A DNA stretch of 36,660 nucleotides from contig JALOLA010000013.1 of the NCBI GenBank assembly GCA_025456205.1, positions 1 through 36,660 on the forward strand. The letters run 5' to 3'. A program made the position numbers and the translations under genes. The number at the start of each line of letters is the position of its first letter. Positions within the stretch are counted from its first letter, which is position 1. This stretch comes from Acidobacteriota bacterium. Its GTDB lineage: Bacteria; Acidobacteriota; Aminicenantia; UBA2199. Shown piece after piece: positions 5,107 to 12,541 of this stretch. The notes under the pieces are model-generated. The model made no database searches, was not told the DNA's origin, and saw only the letters and a list, made by a program, of their open reading frames with translations.

Positions 5107-6273
5107 ATGGGCCCCGACTGGCAAAACCCGCATTACGAGTATTATCGCCAGCAGAGGCGACGGGCGTTTGCCGCTCTTGCCGTCCTCGCCCTCGTCGTGA
5201 TCGCCGTTTTGGCCCCCCGGCTGCTGCGGCGCGGCCCGGTCCCGGGCGCCGCGGCCGGGACGAGCGCCGCGGCACAGCCGCTTCGTTCCGCGCCCGCGCC
5301 CGCGCCCCGGCAGGTTCCGCGGCAGACGGGGATGGAAGAGCCCGCGGATGACTTTTTGCCGCCGTTCCCGGTGGCTGACGAGACCGGGCCGGCGATGCCC
5401 GCCCCGCTGCCCACGGCCCACGGCGGCAATGACGATTTCGCCGCGCGCAAGGCGTCGGCCCTCTCCCTCTATCGGCAGAACAAGCTGCCGGAGGCGCTGG
5501 AGCAGGTGCGGGCCGCCCTGGCCCTGCAGGCGGACGACGAGCTGCTCGAGCTGCTGGCGAAGCTGCAGCGGGAGATCCGCGTGCAGCGCAACTACGACCA
5601 GGCGCGCTCGGACAACTTCGTCGTGCTCTTCGACGGCTACGAGCATGAGGAGATAAGGCGCACGGTGCTGGACATCCTGAAGGACGCGTATGCCGAGATC
5701 GGCAAGGAACTGGATTTTTTCCCTTCCGAGCCCATCACCGTCATCCTGTACACCGGCGAGGATTTTTCCGACGTCACCCAGGCCCCGGGCTGGGCCGGCG
5801 GCATGTTCGGCAAGGTCGACGGCAAGATCCGCCTGCCGGTGCAGGGCGCCGAGGGCCAGGAGCGGACGCTGCGCCGGGTGCTGACCCATGAGTACGTCCA
5901 TGCCCTGCTGCACGCCCTGGCGCCGGCTACGCCCCTCTGGCTGCATGAGGGCCTGGCCCAGTACCTCAGCGGCGACCAGGCGGTCAGCGTGGCCCAGCTG
6001 ATCCCGCTGGCCATGCTGGCCAACGGCTTCCCGCGCCAGGCGCGGCCCGCCTACGTGGCCTATATGGAAAGCCTGCAGGCGGTGCAGGACCTGGTGGAGG
6101 AACGCGGCATGCCGCGCCTGCGCCGGCTGCTGGACGGGTTGGGCGCCGGCAAGGGCCTGGAAGCGGCCTTCGCCGCCGCCTATGGGCAGCCTTTCAGCCG
6201 CTGGGCGGCCGGATGGCGGCCGGTCGAGCGCGGGGAAACGGCGGCCACGGGGCCGGAAAAGAATGATGGATAA
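5107..6273 (+). CDS. Membrane-anchored MA-family (gluzincin) metallopeptidase with TPR-like segment
   Basis: A 388-aa protein whose ATG comes one base after the stop of the M29-like gene. One membrane segment spans about residues 17-37, followed by a Pro/Ala-rich linker to about residue 110. A TPR-like helical pair follows ('ALSLYRQNKLPEALEQVRAA'), then a peptidase-MA domain. Zinc site: His261-Glu262 and His265 in THEYVH, with the third ligand probably Glu281 in WLHEGLAQYLSG, an arrangement typical of gluzincins. The catalytic part should face the periplasm or outside. Substrate unknown. Together with the tricorn-like protease and the M29 enzyme it makes a peptidase-rich block. Confidence 0.82.
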   Translation: MGPDWQNPHYEYYRQQRRRAFAALAVLALVVIAVLAPRLLRRGPVPGAAAGTSAAAQPLRSAPAPAPRQVPRQTGMEEPADDFLPPFPVADETGPAMPAPLPTAHGGNDDFAARKASALSLYRQNKLPEALEQVRAALALQADDELLELLAKLQREIRVQRNYDQARSDNFVVLFDGYEHEEIRRTVLDILKDAYAEIGKELDFFPSEPITVILYTGEDFSDVTQAPGWAGGMFGKVDGKIRLPVQGAEGQERTLRRVLTHEYVHALLHALAPATPLWLHEGLAQYLSGDQAVSVAQLIPLAMLANGFPRQARPAYVAYMESLQAVQDLVEERGMPRLRRLLDGLGAGKGLEAAFAAAYGQPFSRWAAGWRPVERGETAATGPEKNDG

Positions 6274-6372
6274 AAAGAGATCAGACGCAGCTGCAGGCTC
6301 ATATTGCAACCGTTCGCCGGCAAAGGCTACAAGCGGAAAAGGCGAGGCTGAAGGGACGTGACCGCCGACGGG

Positions 6373-7035
6373 TCAGCGCCGCGGCAGCAGCAATGACCTG
6401 AGGCTGGAGAAGGCGCGGTCGATATTGGCGTCGTCGAGCAGGATAACGAACTCGGTGTAGGTGGAGACGACCTCGGTCACGTTGATGTTGTCCCAGGCCA
6501 GCAGCTTGAGGACCAGGTAGTAGATACCGGGGGCGGCCACGGTCTGCGGACTCAGGCGCAGGATGATCGCCGACAGCCCGTCATAGCGCGCCAGCAGGCG
6601 TTCGCCGGCAAAGATGCGCTGCATGGCGCCCGACAGGTCGGAGCTGACGATGGCCGTCACTTCGTCGGCGCCGCTGGAAAAAGTGACGAAGCGGTCGCCG
6701 CGCCCGCGGATCTCCTGCAGCAGCTTGATCTGCCTGGGCAGCATCGTCTCCGAGTTCCTGAACGTGAATTCGCTCAGGTGCGAGCGCACGGTGATGTCGC
6801 TGACATACTTGGCCATTTCCTTGGGTCGCGGCTGTTTTCCCCTGATCCGCTCCGCCAGCCGCTTCAGGGCCATGACCAGGGCGGCGTCACTGACGTCCTT
6901 GAGCAGCCGCTTCTCGATGCCCGGGCGCAGGGAACGGGCCAGGGCGGAGAGGTTGATGATCCCGGAGGCGAGTCCTTCCTCAAGGAAAGGCGTCTGGGCC
7001 ACGATCTTGCTGAGCGCGTCACTGATGGAAACCAT
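6373..7035 (-). CDS. ACT-domain protein with N-terminal helical (HTH-like) region, possible regulator
   Basis: A 220-aa protein. Residues 1-100 are mostly helical and contain 'SALARSLRPGIEKRL' and 'ALVMALKRLAERI', which could form a winged-helix or similar DNA-binding fold; this is an inference. Residues about 105-218 read as tandem ACT-like beta-alpha-beta units ('VTAIVSSDLSGAM', 'IYYLVLKLLAWDNINVTEV', 'FVILLDDANIDRAFSSL'). ACT domains usually bind amino acids. The gene is divergent from the LysW-like/homocitrate-synthase pair and shares its control region, so it could sense an amino acid and control that pair. There is no Shine-Dalgarno; a TATATT box ends 6 bases before the ATG, suggesting a leaderless mRNA. 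Confidence 0.7.
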   Translation of the reverse strand: MVSISDALSKIVAQTPFLEEGLASGIINLSALARSLRPGIEKRLLKDVSDAALVMALKRLAERIRGKQPRPKEMAKYVSDITVRSHLSEFTFRNSETMLPRQIKLLQEIRGRGDRFVTFSSGADEVTAIVSSDLSGAMQRIFAGERLLARYDGLSAIILRLSPQTVAAPGIYYLVLKLLAWDNINVTEVVSTYTEFVILLDDANIDRAFSSLRSLLLPRR

Positions 7036-7041
7036 GGTCCC

Positions 7042-7071
7042 AATATAGCAGAAATCGTTTTTTTAAGTCAA
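7042..7071 (-). promoter_or_regulatory. Promoter of the ACT-domain gene
   Basis: On the minus strand: TTGACT (7071-7066), 18 bases, then TATATT (7047-7042) with an upstream TG (extended -10). The box ends 6 bases before ATG 7035, which places the transcript start at about the initiation codon. The -35 overlaps the first copy of the 12-bp direct repeat. Confidence 0.55.
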
Positions 7072-7139
7072 TTTATTTGTAGCCGATGTTTAAAAATAAA
7101 CATTATTTCAATTAATTTAAAATAAAATCAATTTATTTG
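7068..7139 (+). repeat. 12-bp direct repeat TCAATTTATTTG, two copies exactly 60 bp apart
   Basis: Identical copies lie at 7068-7079 and 7128-7139 in the AT-rich spacer between divergent genes. Copy 1 overlaps the minus-strand -35 (7066-7071); copy 2 overlaps the plus-strand -35 (7137-7142). The position on both -35 elements suggests a shared operator, but the sequence is A/T-only except one C and one G, so chance is not excluded. Confidence 0.6.
7086..7103. promoter_or_regulatory. Inverted repeat ATGTTTA-N4-TAAACAT, possible operator
   Basis: A perfect 7-bp inverted repeat (7086-7092 and 7097-7103, loop AAAA) lies midway between the two divergent promoters. A second, weaker one, AAATAAA-N5-TTTATTT, lies at 7120-7138. 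With no G/C stem neither is a terminator, so a protein-binding site is the better reading. Confidence 0.4.
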
Positions 7140-7164
7140 ACGCTCAACGATGGATGGCTATAAT
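7137..7164 (+). promoter_or_regulatory. Promoter of the LysW-like/homocitrate-synthase pair
   Basis: TTGACG (7137-7142), 16 bases, then a perfect TATAAT (7159-7164). Transcription would start near 7171, giving a leader of about 24 bases that contains the GGAGG ribosome site (7184-7188) six bases before ATG 7195. Confidence 0.65.
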
Positions 7165-7194
7165 CGCGTTGAATATCACTTTTGGAGGTGTTTC

Positions 7195-7368
7195 ATGCTC
7201 ATTCTGGTTGAATGCCCGGTTTGCGGGGAAGAAAAGGAGTTCCCGGCCGATGCGGCCGTCGGGATGCGCCGCGGCTGCCGTCGCTGCTGGGCCGTGCTGG
7301 AGATCCGCGCGCTCGTGCCTTTGGAGGTCGCCAAAATTCCCTTATGCGCGGAGGACTTCGGGATATGA
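7195..7368 (+). CDS. LysW-like small zinc-binding carrier-type protein lacking the terminal Glu
   Basis: A 57-aa protein. It has the LysW layout: CPVC at Cys7/Cys10, a second pair Cys28/Cys31 (CRRC), an acidic/hydrophobic middle, then a tail AEDFGI. In LysW and related amino-group carrier proteins the first part is a zinc knuckle and the tail is EDWGE; the terminal Glu is joined to the amino group of aminoadipate or glutamate during lysine or arginine synthesis. Here the tail is nearly kept (EDFG) but the last residue is Ile57, and the middle/second knuckle is unusually basic (MRRGCRRC). The start ATG 7195 has a GGAGG site. The stop overlaps the start of the homocitrate-synthase-like gene (ATGA), so the two are translationally coupled. 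LysX, LysZ, LysY, LysJ and LysK are not in the window. Function without the terminal Glu is unknown. Confidence 0.78.
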   Translation: MLILVECPVCGEEKEFPADAAVGMRRGCRRCWAVLEIRALVPLEVAKIPLCAEDFGI

Positions 7369-8579
7369 CGGATATGAATGCCGCGGCCTTGAACAGGGGG
7401 AAGGTCGCCGTCCTCGACGCAACCCTGCGCGAGGGCGAGCAAGCGCCGGGCGTCTGCTTCGCTCCTCATGTCAAGATGGCGATCTGCGAACTTCTGGACG
7501 AGATCGGCGTCGATATCATCGAGGCTGGCCACCCGGTGGTCAGCGATGAGATCCGCCGCGGCATCGGGGTGCTCGCCCGCCGCGGTTTCCGCGCCTGCAT
7601 CGGCGCCCATGCCCGGGCGCTGAGGCATGACGTCGAGGCGGGCGTGGACAGCGGCGCCGGTTTCCTGGGCATATTCCTCTGCTTGTCCCCCGAACGGCTC
7701 AGGGACCGGGGCGTGACACTCCCGGCCGCCCTCGAATGCGCGGCCGAATCCATCGCCCTGGCCAAGGAGCGCCAGCCCGGGCTGATCGTGCGCTTCACTC
7801 CCGAGGACGGCGTCCGCTCTCCGCTCGCCGACGTCGTGGAAGCGGCCCGCGTCGCCGTCGGGGCCGGCGCCGATATCATCAGCGTCGCCGATACGACCGG
7901 CAGCATGGTCCCGGGCGGTGATCGCAGCCTTTATGACTGGGTAAGCCGGTTCCGCGAGCGACTGGCGGGTCAGGGGTCTTTTCCGCGCATCGCCGTCCAT
8001 TGTCATAATGACCGCGGGCTGGCCCTGGCCAACGCTCTCGACGCCCTGCGCGCCGGCGCATCGATCATCGACGCCTCGGTGCTCGGCCTGGGCGAGCGGG
8101 CCGGCATCGTCGACCTGGCATCGCTGCTGGCCGTGCTTTCCCAGGATTTGCCCGGCAGCGGCAGCTGGCGCCTCGACAAGCTCGCCGAACTCTATCGCCT
8201 GGTCAGTCATTATTCGGGGGTCGATGTGCCGGTTCATTTTCCGGTCATGGGGCGCAATGCTTTCAGCCATTGCGCCGGGGTCCACAGCCAGGCGGCCCTG
8301 CGCGATCCCCGCCATTATCAGAGCCTCGATCCGCGGCCGTTCGGGCTGCGCCCGGAACTGATCCTCGACCATATGACGGGGCGCACCGCGCTGCAGCATG
8401 CGCTGGAGCGTATTGGCGTTAGTGGCATTGACGGGGAACTCCTGTCCCTGGTGCTGGAGCGGGTCAAGGAAACCGGCCAGAAAGGGCGGGTGGTCACTCT
8501 CGAGGAACTGCGCTGGATCATCGACTACGAAAAACGATCGCCGCCCGGCTTGCCGGCGCGAATGACGCGTACGGCATGA
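7365..8579 (+). CDS. Homocitrate synthase / 2-isopropylmalate synthase family enzyme
   Basis: A 404-aa DRE-TIM metallolyase, expected to condense acetyl-CoA with a 2-oxo acid. Motifs: LDATLREGEQAPG (Asp18, Arg22, Glu23), HCHNDRGLALANA (metal ligands His212, His214) and GLGERAG (241-247). A second domain has the usual SHCAGVHSQ segment and TGRTAL. The length fits NifV/LysS homocitrate synthases; the longer regulatory domain of LeuA is absent. The start ATG 7365 overlaps the LysW-like stop by 4 bases. Pairing with a LysW-like protein favours homocitrate synthase of an aminoadipate-type pathway, but substrate choice cannot be read reliably here; isopropylmalate, citramalate or another 2-oxo acid remains possible. 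Confidence 0.88.
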   Translation: MTDMNAAALNRGKVAVLDATLREGEQAPGVCFAPHVKMAICELLDEIGVDIIEAGHPVVSDEIRRGIGVLARRGFRACIGAHARALRHDVEAGVDSGAGFLGIFLCLSPERLRDRGVTLPAALECAAESIALAKERQPGLIVRFTPEDGVRSPLADVVEAARVAVGAGADIISVADTTGSMVPGGDRSLYDWVSRFRERLAGQGSFPRIAVHCHNDRGLALANALDALRAGASIIDASVLGLGERAGIVDLASLLAVLSQDLPGSGSWRLDKLAELYRLVSHYSGVDVPVHFPVMGRNAFSHCAGVHSQAALRDPRHYQSLDPRPFGLRPELILDHMTGRTALQHALERIGVSGIDGELLSLVLERVKETGQKGRVVTLEELRWIIDYEKRSPPGLPARMTRTA

Positions 8580-8696
8580 TCCGCACCTCCCCGTAAGTGG
8601 CCGGGAAGGGCCTTGAAAAAAGTTCCGCGCCATGCTATCCAATGGCATCTGCAAGTTGGACGGGAGCCATGTGGCGCCGCAAGCCGGGAGGATAAC

Positions 8697-9512
8697 ATGA
8701 ATTGGGAATGGACAAGGGAGATCAGCCCCGTCTGGCTGGCGCTGGCGGCGACCCTGTTCACCTGGGGGGTCACTGCCCTTGGGGCCGCCATGGTCTTCTT
8801 CTTCAAGGAGCTGAACAAGCGGCTGCTCAACACCATGCTCGGTTTCGCCGCCGGCGTGATGATCGCCGCCAGCTACTGGTCGCTGCTGGCGCCGGCCATC
8901 GAGATGTCGCGGGCGCGCGGCGGACCCCCCTGGCTCCCCGCGCTCGTGGGATTTCTCGCAGGGGGAGCCTTTTTACTGGCGATCGACAAGGTCCTGCCCC
9001 ACTTGCACATGGGCCTCGACTCGGGGCACGCGGAAGGCATCAAAACCTCGTGGCAGCGGAGCACCCTGCTCATCCTGGCCATCACGCTGCACAACATCCC
9101 GGAGGGCCTCGCCGTCGGCGTCGCTTTCGGCTCGCTGGCCGACGGCTGGACGCCGGGCGCGCTGGGCGGTGCCGTGGCCCTGGCCTTCGGCATCGGGCTG
9201 CAGAACTTTCCCGAGGGGGCGGCCGTATCGGTCCCGCTGCGCCGCGAGGGATTCTCCCGCGCCAGGGCGTTCTGGTACGGCCAGCTGTCGGGAATGGTCG
9301 AGCCCCTGGCCGGAGTGGCGGGCGTGGCGCTGGTGGTGCTGGTCAAGCCGCTGCTGCCCTATGCCCTGGCGTTCGCCGCCGGGGCCATGATCTTCGTGGT
9401 CGTGGAAGAACTGATCCCCGAGGCGCAGCGCGGCGACGAAACCGATTTCTCCACCATCGGCGCCATGCTCGGCTTTGCGGCCATGATGTTCCTGGACGTG
9501 GCACTGGGATAG
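8697..9512 (+). CDS. ZIP-family metal transporter (GufA/ZIP11-like)
   Basis: A 271-aa inner-membrane protein with about eight hydrophobic segments. The metal-path motifs of the family are present: HNIPEG (His132-Gly137) in TM4 and LQNFPEG (Asn170, Glu173) in TM5, the form seen in GufA/ZIP11-like members. A His-containing loop ([12 protein letters not shown]) precedes TM4. It should import zinc or another divalent metal. ATG 8697 has a GGGAGG ribosome site at 8687-8692. It follows the homocitrate-synthase gene by 117 bases and could be read from the same promoter. The zinc and metallo-enzymes nearby make a metal supply role reasonable, but there is no direct link. Confidence 0.92.
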
Positions 9513-9579
9513 AAAAAAGCTCTCGGTGCAGTGCGTACGGCAAGAATTAAATTCAGGCAACACTGTCACAACTGGCTTG

Positions 9580-9840
9580 TTAATTATTTCGTCCCTGGCC
9601 GCCCAGGAATTTATCCCGGCACTCGCTTGAGCAAAAATAGAGGGTTTCTTTTTTCCCCGGCAGGGAAACGGCCTGGCTGAGCGGCACCCAGGTGCCGCAG
9701 GCCGGGTCCTGGACCATTTCTTCAACCGGCTGATCCTTGGACGGCTCGAAGGTCCGCGGCTTCGGCGCCGGGACGGCGCCGCGCCGCAGCCAGCGGTAGA
9801 GGATGTAGATGACCCAGGCCAGCAGGATGAGCTGGAACAT
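9580..9840 (-). CDS. Small membrane-anchored YHS/TRASH-type (PP0621-like) protein
   Basis: An 86-aa protein. One membrane segment lies at about residues 2-17, followed by a basic linker. A C-terminal metal-binding motif follows: DPACGTWVP, then YFCSSECRDKF, the pattern of YHS/TRASH domains (three or four Cys binding a metal). ATG 9840 shares its A with the TGA of the upstream histidine ammonia-lyase gene (TGATG), and there is no Shine-Dalgarno, so it is probably translated by coupling. An alternative TTG start lies one codon upstream. The molecular role is not known. Confidence 0.75.
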   Translation of the reverse strand: MFQLILLAWVIYILYRWLRRGAVPAPKPRTFEPSKDQPVEEMVQDPACGTWVPLSQAVSLPGKKETLYFCSSECRDKFLGGQGRNN

Positions 9841-11366
9841 CAAAGGAGCTGCAGGCCCGTTTTTTCGGCGGCGGCCACCAGTTGCCCGCTTTCGATCAGG
9901 TCGGCGATGTGGCGGATGGGGATGTCCATGCGCGTATCCTCGTTCAGGAAGGGCACCTGCTTGCGGATGAGGGCCTTGACGCTCTCCAGCGGCTGCGAGC
10001 TTTTCAGGTCATAGAAGTCGAGGGCCTGGGCCGCGGCCATCAGCTCGATGGCCAGGATGAGGCGCAGGTTGCCGATGATCTCGCGTGCCTTGCGGGCGCC
10101 GATGGTGCCCATGCTGACGTGGTCTTCCTGGTTGGCCGAGGTGGGGATGTTGTCCACCGAGGCCGGATGGGCCAGGGACTTGTTCTCCGAAGCCAGCGCC
10201 GTGGCGGTGACATGCACGATCATGAAGCCCGAGTTCAGCCCGTTGTCCGCGACCAGGAAATTGGGCAGCCCCATGTTGGAAGCGGGGTTGATCAGGCGGT
10301 CGATGCGCCGCTCGGAGATGTTGCCCAGCTCGGTCATGACGATGGACAGGAAATCCATGGCAAAGGCCACCGGCTCGCCGTGGAAGTTGCCGCCCGACAG
10401 GATGATCTTCTTCTGCGGGAAGATCAGCGGGTTCTCGGTGGCCGAGTTCGTCTCGATCTCCAGCACTCGGCGCACGTGCTTCAGCGTATCGCGCACGGCC
10501 CCATGCACTTGGGGAATGCAGCGGACCGAATAGGCGTCCTGCACTTTCTTCTTGCCCTGGTGCGATATCCACAGCGGCGAGTCCTTGATCAGGTGCATGA
10601 TATTGCGGGCGCTTTCCATCTGCCCCGGGTGGCGTCGTACGTCCTGGATCTCCTCGTAGAAGGGGCTGGGGCTGCCCAGCTGGGCCTCGAAGGTCATGGC
10701 GCCCGCGATGTCGGCCGTCTTGGCCAGGTTCTCCGCTTCGAGAAGATTAAAGATGCCGATGGCGGTCATGACCTGGGTGCCGTTGATCAGCGCCAATCCC
10801 TCTTTTTCCAGCAGCTCCAGGGGCTGCAGCCCCGCCTTCTTCAGGGCCGCGGCGGCATTCATCTCCTGGCCCTGGAACAGCACCTCGCCCTCGCCGATCA
10901 GGACCATGGCCAGGTGCGAAAGGGGGGCCAGGTCTCCGGAGGCGCCCACCGAGCCCTTGGAAGGGATCATGGGCACGATGTCCTTGTTCAGCAGGTCCAG
11001 CAGCAGCTGCACCACTTCCAGGCGCACGCCGCTGTAGCCTTTGGCCAGCACGTTGGCGCGCAGCAGGATCACGCCGCGCCCGATGTCGGCGGGCAGGCAG
11101 GGGCCGACGCCGGCGGTATGGCTCTGGATCAGGTTGCGCTGCAGCCGCTTCAGGTCCTTCTTTTCGATGCGGCGCTGGGCCAGCGCCCCGAAGCCGGTGT
11201 TGATGCCGTAATAGGGCTTGTCGCTGTGCAGGAATTCCTCGAGGACCTGCCGGCAGTTGCGGACTTTCTCTTCGGCGGCCGGGGAGAGCTCGACGCGCTT
11301 GCGCAGGCGGGCAACGCGGTCGAATTCCTCCAGGGTGAGCCTGTCGCCGTCGATCTGGATGGGCAT
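9840..11366 (-). CDS. hutH: Histidine ammonia-lyase (HutH)
   Basis: A 508-aa protein, the usual family length. It converts L-histidine to trans-urocanate plus ammonia in the cytoplasm. Ala142-Ser143-Gly144, in SVGASGDLAPL, forms the MIO cofactor by self-cyclisation. The active-site Tyr53 (YYGINTGFG), His83 (QSHTAGVG) and the Glu in SANQEDHVSMG match histidine lyases better than phenylalanine or tyrosine lyases. ATG 11366 lies 20 bases after the stop of the acyl-CoA dehydrogenase gene. The other hut genes (urocanase, imidazolonepropionase) are not next to it, which is unusual for a histidine pathway; a related aminomutase is less likely but possible. Confidence 0.93.
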   Translation of the reverse strand: MPIQIDGDRLTLEEFDRVARLRKRVELSPAAEEKVRNCRQVLEEFLHSDKPYYGINTGFGALAQRRIEKKDLKRLQRNLIQSHTAGVGPCLPADIGRGVILLRANVLAKGYSGVRLEVVQLLLDLLNKDIVPMIPSKGSVGASGDLAPLSHLAMVLIGEGEVLFQGQEMNAAAALKKAGLQPLELLEKEGLALINGTQVMTAIGIFNLLEAENLAKTADIAGAMTFEAQLGSPSPFYEEIQDVRRHPGQMESARNIMHLIKDSPLWISHQGKKKVQDAYSVRCIPQVHGAVRDTLKHVRRVLEIETNSATENPLIFPQKKIILSGGNFHGEPVAFAMDFLSIVMTELGNISERRIDRLINPASNMGLPNFLVADNGLNSGFMIVHVTATALASENKSLAHPASVDNIPTSANQEDHVSMGTIGARKAREIIGNLRLILAIELMAAAQALDFYDLKSSQPLESVKALIRKQVPFLNEDTRMDIPIRHIADLIESGQLVAAAEKTGLQLL

Positions 11367-11386
11367 GGTCCCGTTTCCCCGCCGGG

Positions 11387-12541
11387 TCAGCCGATGTTCT
11401 TGGTCGCGCCCAGCAGCTCCAGCGAGATGACGTGCTTCTGGATCTCGTTCGTCCCCTCGTAGATCTGCAGCAGCTTGGCGTCGCGCATCATTTTCTCGAC
11501 CGGGTACTCCTTCATGTAGCCGTAGCCGCCGAAAAGCTGCACGGCGTCGACGGTGACCTTCATGGCCACGTCGGTGGCCATGACCTTGGCCATGGCCGAT
11601 TCCTTGGAGGCCTTCATGCCGTTGTCCAGCATCCATGCCGAGCGGTAGACCATCAGCCGCGCCGCCTCGATCTCGGTGGCCATCTCGGCCAGCTTGAAAG
11701 CGTTGTGCTGGAAGGTGGCGATGGGCCGGCCGAACTGCACCCGCGACTGGGTGTATTTCAGCGCCTCCTCGAAGGCGGCCCGGGCCACGCCCACGCCGCC
11801 GGCTCCCACGGCGGGCCGGGCGTAGTCGAGCGTCTTCATGGCGATGATGAAGCCCATGCCCTCGCGCCTGAGGACGTTGGCGGCCGGGATCTTGACCTCG
11901 TCGAAATAGATCTCGGTGGTGTTGGAGGCGCGGTGCCCCATCTTGTTCTCGTGCTTGCCGATGGTGATGCCCTGCGTGTCCATGGGCACGATGAAGGCCG
12001 TGAGGCCGCGGGCGCCGCGCGATTTGTCGGTGGAGGCGAAAACCACCCCCAACTGCGACACGCCGCCGTTGGTGATGAAGGTCTTGGAGCCGTTGATCAC
12101 GTATTGGTCGCCCTTCTTCACGGCGGTGGTCTGGATGGCGGAGTTGTCGGATCCGGCCTCCTTCTCGGTAAGGGCGAAGCAGGCGAAGGTCATCTTCTCG
12201 GTCAGCGGCGTCAGAAACTTCTTCTTCTGCTCGTCGCTGCCGAAGAGCACGATGGGAGTGGTGGCCAGCGTGTTGGCCATGATCGACGTGTACATGCCGG
12301 CGCAGCCCCAGGCGAGCTCCTCGCAGACGATGGTGTTGATCAGGGTCGAGAAGCCGGCGCCGTTGTACTCGGCCGGGATGCCCGAGGTGAGGAAGCCGGC
12401 GGCGAACGCCTTCTGCATGATCTCGAGGGGAAACTCGTTCTTCTCGTCATATTCGTGGCTCTTGGGTCGCATCTCCTTTTCGGCGAACTTGTGGGTCTCT
12501 TCCTTGAATGCCAGGTGTTCCTCGCTGAGGGCAAAGTCCAT
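11387..12541 (-). CDS. Acyl-CoA dehydrogenase
   Basis: A 384-aa FAD flavoprotein of usual length that desaturates an acyl-CoA and passes electrons to ETF. Helical N-domain to about residue 120, then a beta-domain with FALTEKEAGSD and 'FITNG', and a C-terminal helical domain. The catalytic base is Glu362 in QIYEGTNEIQ, the position used by short- and medium-chain enzymes. The Arg in SRVQFGRPI fits FAD binding. ATG 12541 has an AGGAGA ribosome site. The frame stays open upstream across the kinase gene, but that is GC-rich antisense-frame noise. Chain length or branched-chain preference cannot be set. It is the second gene of the kinase operon. Confidence 0.94.
   Translation of the reverse strand: MDFALSEEHLAFKEETHKFAEKEMRPKSHEYDEKNEFPLEIMQKAFAAGFLTSGIPAEYNGAGFSTLINTIVCEELAWGCAGMYTSIMANTLATTPIVLFGSDEQKKKFLTPLTEKMTFACFALTEKEAGSDNSAIQTTAVKKGDQYVINGSKTFITNGGVSQLGVVFASTDKSRGARGLTAFIVPMDTQGITIGKHENKMGHRASNTTEIYFDEVKIPAANVLRREGMGFIIAMKTLDYARPAVGAGGVGVARAAFEEALKYTQSRVQFGRPIATFQHNAFKLAEMATEIEAARLMVYRSAWMLDNGMKASKESAMAKVMATDVAMKVTVDAVQLFGGYGYMKEYPVEKMMRDAKLLQIYEGTNEIQKHVISLELLGATKNIG

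Follow-up and report, generated by a model that had tools for sequence, protein, structure and literature searches.

A LysW-like zinc-ribbon protein without its terminal glutamate, coupled to a homocitrate-synthase-family enzyme, as a probable remnant of a pruned lysine operon in an Aminicenantes genus

To our knowledge, LysW and ArgW have been described only as covalent carriers, and their functional centre is the terminal Glu. In Natrinema, the ArgW exchange E54A abolished function, and the ligase recognizes the motif EDWGE (PMC10433800). The stretch of DNA analyzed here (36,660 nucleotides, hereafter the window) belongs to a draft genome of 2.59 Mb that is 86.9% complete. An initial annotation had reported a LysW-like protein without terminal Glu, coupled by an ATGA overlap to a gene of the homocitrate synthase family (HCS); the open reading frames confirmed this arrangement, which is shared by related species. 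The features of the locus, and of the equivalent position in other loci, are as follows:

6373-7035, minus strand: R, a divergent regulator-like protein of 220 aa with a helical N-terminus and an aspartokinase-type ACT pair
7088-7101, no strand assigned: palindrome GTTTAAAAATAAAC (GTT-N8-AAC), candidate operator of R
7137-7164, plus strand: predicted sigma70-type promoter TTGACG-16-TATAAT with 11 of 12 consensus matches
7184-7188, plus strand: GGAGG, putative Shine-Dalgarno of the LysW-like gene as read from the sequence, kept in the congeners G015 and G004
7195-7368, plus strand: LysW-like protein of 57 aa, a zinc-ribbon LysW descendant with the tail CAEDFGI and without terminal Glu
7345-7368, plus strand: tail codons TGC GCG GAG GAC TTC GGG ATA TGA, with GGAGG inside (7350-7354)
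7365-8579, plus strand: HCS, an enzyme of the homocitrate synthase family of 404 aa, with the ATGA overlap at 7365-7368
8697-9512, plus strand: ZIP-family metal transporter (Pfam Zip, 84 bits), downstream of HCS
L126:9336-9490, L053:7246-7420 and L054:7827-8000: mini-ORFs of 16 and 19 codons at the LysW position, which overlap the HCS start or lie just ahead of it

The translation of the LysW-like gene, MLILVECPVCGEEKEFPADAAVGMRRGCRRCWAVLEIRALVPLEVAKIPLCAEDFGI followed by the stop codon, contains two CxxC pairs (CPVC and CRRC) and an EDFG tail with Ile as the last residue. The protein scored 20.2 bits against PF21344 (cut-off 27), 19.3 against TIGR01206 (cut-off 53.2) and 23.4 against NF041070 (cut-off 75). 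All three matches of a PDB sequence search were LysWs, and the AlphaFold model (pLDDT 86) had a LysW fold, with LysWs as its best six PDB structure matches. The E-values of these structure matches were modest (0.0025 and up), which is expected for only 57 residues. Judged from these profiles, the LysW identity of the protein is real but weak, and below every family cut-off. The residues C7, C10, C28 and C31 were invariant across 28 aligned sequences.

The tail was conserved in four species of the genus. It reads CAEDFGI in G004, CAEDFGV in G002 and CAEDFGL in G015, so that CAEDFG is invariant and the end residue is I, I, L or V, as compared with EDWGE or EDWGQ in 55 LysWs of other lineages. 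The G002 protein is a 32-residue fragment, and in G004 the LysW-HCS pair is interrupted by a contig break. Neither the four zinc Cys nor CAEDFG varied among the three full sequences; all six tail positions were conserved, versus 14 of the 46 other non-Cys positions (Fisher p = 0.002). Apart from the four Cys and the CAEDFG-aliphatic tail the protein evolves fast, with a dN/dS of ∼0.37 in pairs with the window and >1 for G015-G004, the latter from just 58 codons. Cys51, Phe55, the aliphatic end and the loss of most net negative charge are new traits of the genus: the net charge is -2 in the window and -1 to -2 in the genus, versus -9 to -17 in carriers. The last codon of the window gene is ATA, two changes away from GAA, and the terminal codons of the relatives include GTA and CTG. 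The initial annotation was therefore right that a single sequencing error does not account for the end residue, as the tails of the relatives exclude a read error. All three codons would be reachable from an ancestral GAG via GTG by single steps, with no simultaneous double change.

The genomic context of LysW was compared in 80 loci obtained by a contig scan of genomes, nearly all of which are draft metagenome genomes. In most of them LysW lies directly before HCS, including loci of Acidobacteriota, Calditrichota, Ignavibacteria, KSB1, Zixibacteria, some DPANN bins and others. On contigs that are long enough, this pair is usually followed by LysX, LysY, a class-II GATase-like protein, LysZ and LysJ. 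The complete operon, found in many other phyla, has R divergent from LysW-HCS-LysX-LysY-GATase-LysZ-LysJ and LysW tails ending in EDWGE or EDWGQ; G020, which belongs to the same family but a different genus, has kept it in full with the tail EDWGE. An orphan R-LysW-HCS arrangement with the tail QDCGE and no LysX at the examined locus was seen at L068:2546-2812, in a bin labelled as a Proteinoplasmatales archaeon. No natural LysW-HCS fusion was present among the collected loci. Judging by gene order, the pairing is not special to this genus: LysW and HCS head a full lysine operon that is widespread and has been pruned here.

LysX over cut-off was found in none of the eight genus genomes (the window genome and seven congeners, four of which are 93-96% complete), which gave generic ATP-grasp matches only; it was present in each of the seven outgroup genomes compared, all carrying an EDWG[EQ] LysW. 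For LysZ there were only generic weak kinase matches in the genus. LysX, LysY, LysZ, LysJ and the GATase had no match in the genus loci, and no second LysW was found in the window genome, so that a search beyond the locus for an ordinary LysW and its partners returned nothing but the generic LysX and LysZ matches. All genus genomes are incomplete, and these absences were judged by profile search. Lysine synthesis by the DAP route was considered and rejected, as profile search detected neither DapA nor LysA in the genus. What is left of the operon is R, the promoter, the LysW-like gene and HCS, together with the palindrome. We therefore regard the LysW-HCS pair as a pruned remnant of a LysW lysine operon in this Aminicenantes genus, with a probability of roughly 0.62 given the gene content compared here. 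In this scheme LysX and LysZ would have been lost while R, the promoter, the LysW-like gene and HCS stayed, with HCS remaining active under the control of R and the LysW-like gene kept as the first cistron, translationally coupled to HCS. The carrier function of the LysW-like protein is very probably lost, because the side-chain carboxyl of the last residue, the ligase and the acidic surface all appear to be gone. The missing LysX and LysZ in the genus, the non-functional ArgW E54A and the recognition of EDWGE by the ligase (PMC10433800) together lead to the same view.

HCS matched the domains HMGL-like (165.4 bits) and HCS_D2 (52.8 bits), both over cut-off, and its best PDB sequence matches were homocitrate synthases of the archaeal type and from Thermus. 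The family motifs LREGEQ, AH, RFTPED, HCHND and GLGER are intact. A loss of the conserved motifs could be ruled out, as the window HCS departs at only 7 of 109 near-invariant family columns; the dN/dS among close congeners is ∼0.26-0.32. The score of the window HCS against TIGR02146 was 317 bits (equivalog cut-off 413.55), and HCSs from complete operons also fell short (334.8 in L033 and 300.5 in L127), so that this cut-off did not discriminate as a test of specificity. Judged by its sequence, HCS probably continues to condense acetyl-CoA, with homocitrate or citrate as its product.

R gave weak Pfam matches only (ACT_7/DUF7523). Its AlphaFold model (pLDDT 88) matched aspartokinase regulatory domains in Foldseek, such as 2zho, 4go5 and 6mx1. 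R adjoins LysW-HCS divergently in 18 loci (the window and 17 others), and the window protein is 74-78% identical to R of G004 and G015. The pattern GTT-N8-AAC occurred in 16 of 21 R-LysW/HCS intergenic regions, where simple shuffles would give ∼3.7% per region; it was picked after viewing the sequences, and some of the 21 loci are near duplicates. The promoter arrangement is the same at the equivalent site in G015, G004 and G011. The Rfam search of the window found no lysine riboswitch and no other Rfam element. R probably controls HCS and senses lysine or a related amino acid, and it is possibly a lysine-sensing regulator of LysW operons in general. The conserved HCS motifs and the good conservation of R suggest that the R-HCS unit is probably still in use.

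For the LysW-like protein itself we favour, with slightly less than even confidence, the reading that it still folds around zinc and has been co-opted, either as a partner that assists or regulates HCS or R, or in metal supply together with the ZIP transporter. Tentatively, the co-option would be as a zinc-ribbon accessory or regulator of HCS (or of R), with the CAEDFG-aliphatic end as a new docking tail. The ZIP transporter follows HCS in four species (the window genome, G002, G004 and G015). The transporter is missing from the locus of G011, the species with the decayed LysW, which may indicate a zinc link. In the open papers searched, no literature on a LysW-HCS interaction was found.

In G011, a sister species of the same genus, LysW is reduced to a 16-aa ORF (MFFQPECPECREASRT and stop), whose stop overlaps the HCS start in an ATGA and before which a strong Shine-Dalgarno is also retained. 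Two Acidobacteria loci (L053 and L054) have a 19-aa ORF between R and HCS. The initial annotation asked whether LysW and HCS always occur together; they adjoin in most of the 80 loci, and G011 keeps HCS with the mini-ORF only. As HCS was kept there after the decay of LysW, LysW appears dispensable for HCS. Together with L053 and L054, this indicates that LysW is no obligate HCS subunit; in its obligate form, the suggestion that it inhibits HCS or had become its structural subunit is accordingly weakened by G011 and possibly by L053/L054.

The same mini-ORFs make translation coupling a real alternative for the retention of the LysW-like gene, one that has to join the readings offered by the initial annotation, although we consider it less likely than not. 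The protein would then be functionless and the ORF kept because ribosomes ending there start HCS at the ATGA, with the mini-ORFs doing likewise. The G011 mini-ORF with its ATGA overlap and its retention of the strong Shine-Dalgarno, the 19-aa ORF of L053/L054 and the fast evolution of the protein all fit this explanation, as does the GGAGG within the tail codons (7350-7354), a possible Shine-Dalgarno of HCS. Since GGAGG/GAGGAC in the tail can serve HCS in this way, the tail may be conserved in part at the DNA level. Such a constraint could hold Glu53-Asp54; it would not account for Cys51, Phe55 or the last residue. Translation coupling therefore leaves unexplained the invariant CxxC pairs, the gained and invariant Cys51, Phe55 and aliphatic C-terminus, and the full-length ORF in other species.

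Another possibility concerns the product of HCS and is compatible with either role of the LysW-like protein. HCS could be a Re-type citrate synthase that feeds a cluster of aconitase-like proteins and an isocitrate/homoisocitrate dehydrogenase, a tenable reading, though less likely than not. Si-citrate synthase was absent from all seven genus genomes searched, which makes citrate a possible product. The window genome encodes LeuCD-like aconitase-family proteins and one Iso_dh (G000:C97), and Re-citrate synthases are known from the HCS family, including ones annotated as homocitrate synthase (PMC12016533). Against this, HCS is lacking in G006 (96% complete) even though the aconitase/Iso_dh cluster is there, and the window HCS retains the motifs of lysine-operon HCSs. 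The cluster on this contig (L188, G000:C97:14000-30000, positions 5307-10510) comprises Iso_dh, an HMG-CoA-lyase-like protein, a CoA-transferase III and LeuC/LeuD-like (homoaconitase-like) proteins.

It is very unlikely that the LysW-like protein is still a carrier by other chemistry, such as a thioester on Cys51 or a bond to the C-terminal alpha-carboxyl. The conservation of CAEDFG-aliphatic in four species and the new Cys51 would suit it, but with only generic ATP-grasp matches in the eight genomes, LysZ equally missing and the acidic surface of the carriers lost, the other attachment mode raised in the initial annotation finds no LysX-type ligase that could serve it. There is virtually no chance that the gene is an ordinary EDWGE LysW altered by a local error in reads or assembly: nothing was found in its favour beyond the draft state of the assembly, the same tail with different terminal codons is present in independently assembled relatives, and LysX is missing across the genus.

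The complete operons showed a second kind of variation at the carrier tail. The last residue is Glu in 36 and Gln in 19 of the 55 EDWG-tailed LysWs that adjoin HCS, of which L033:7821-7997 is an example. Switching of the tail was seen across L003, L005, L006, L007, L027, L033 and ∼50 other loci. Mapped on the HCS tree, which is a quick tree with many weak forks, Glu and Gln replaced each other at least 14 times, and even near-identical proteins differ, with Gln in L007 and Glu in L027. The group used by the known ligase is the gamma-carboxyl of Glu, and tails ending in Gln should therefore need deamidation. Between LysY and LysZ, L033 from Stygiobacter electus (11331-11975, plus strand) and ∼40 other loci encode a class-II GATase-like Ntn hydrolase with an N-terminal Cys that is weakly EgtC-like. 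In 19 genomes, including 14 with an EDWG[EQ] LysW, no LysK exceeded the cut-off; M20-family relatives were present below it. The EgtC-like protein is a candidate LysK substitute and a candidate LysW-Gln deamidase, and a single gamma-glutamyl-amide hydrolase could hypothetically both release lysine and convert Gln to Glu. In the operons read through without a GATase (L015, L022 and L025) all three LysWs end in Glu, a number too small for a test. The Glu/Gln switching beside this hydrolase is perhaps a stronger finding than the LysW-like protein of the window, and it makes the deamidation step directly testable.

The conserved LysW-like protein without Glu and without ligase reveals a stepwise decay of a carrier-protein pathway, in which the carrier residue and the ligase disappear, the carrier shrinks to a mini-ORF, and HCS and the regulator survive. 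With it, one can also test if a carrier scaffold is able to assume a non-carrier role.

With the LysW/ArgW carriers of Thermus (3wwl/3wwn), Thermococcus (5k2m) and Sulfolobus (3vpb), the LysW-like protein shares the small four-Cys zinc ribbon, the ED-aromatic-G tail, the LysW-type predicted fold and a gene adjoining a lysine-pathway gene. Unlike them, it ends in Ile (Val or Leu in the relatives) instead of Glu, has Phe in place of Trp and an extra Cys51, is nearly neutral, scores under the family cut-offs, and has no ligase found in its genome. HCS is 52-58% identical to the HCSs of complete LysW operons and shares the HMGL and HCS_D2 domains and the motifs with the homocitrate synthases of the AAA pathway (Sulfolobus 6ktq, Thermus 2ztj); it differs from the latter in lacking the downstream lysine genes, and 2-oxoglutarate is only its putative substrate. 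With the Re-citrate synthases it shares the superfamily and a genome without Si-citrate synthase, a likeness drawn at the level of the superfamily, whereas the window enzyme derives from a lysine-operon HCS.
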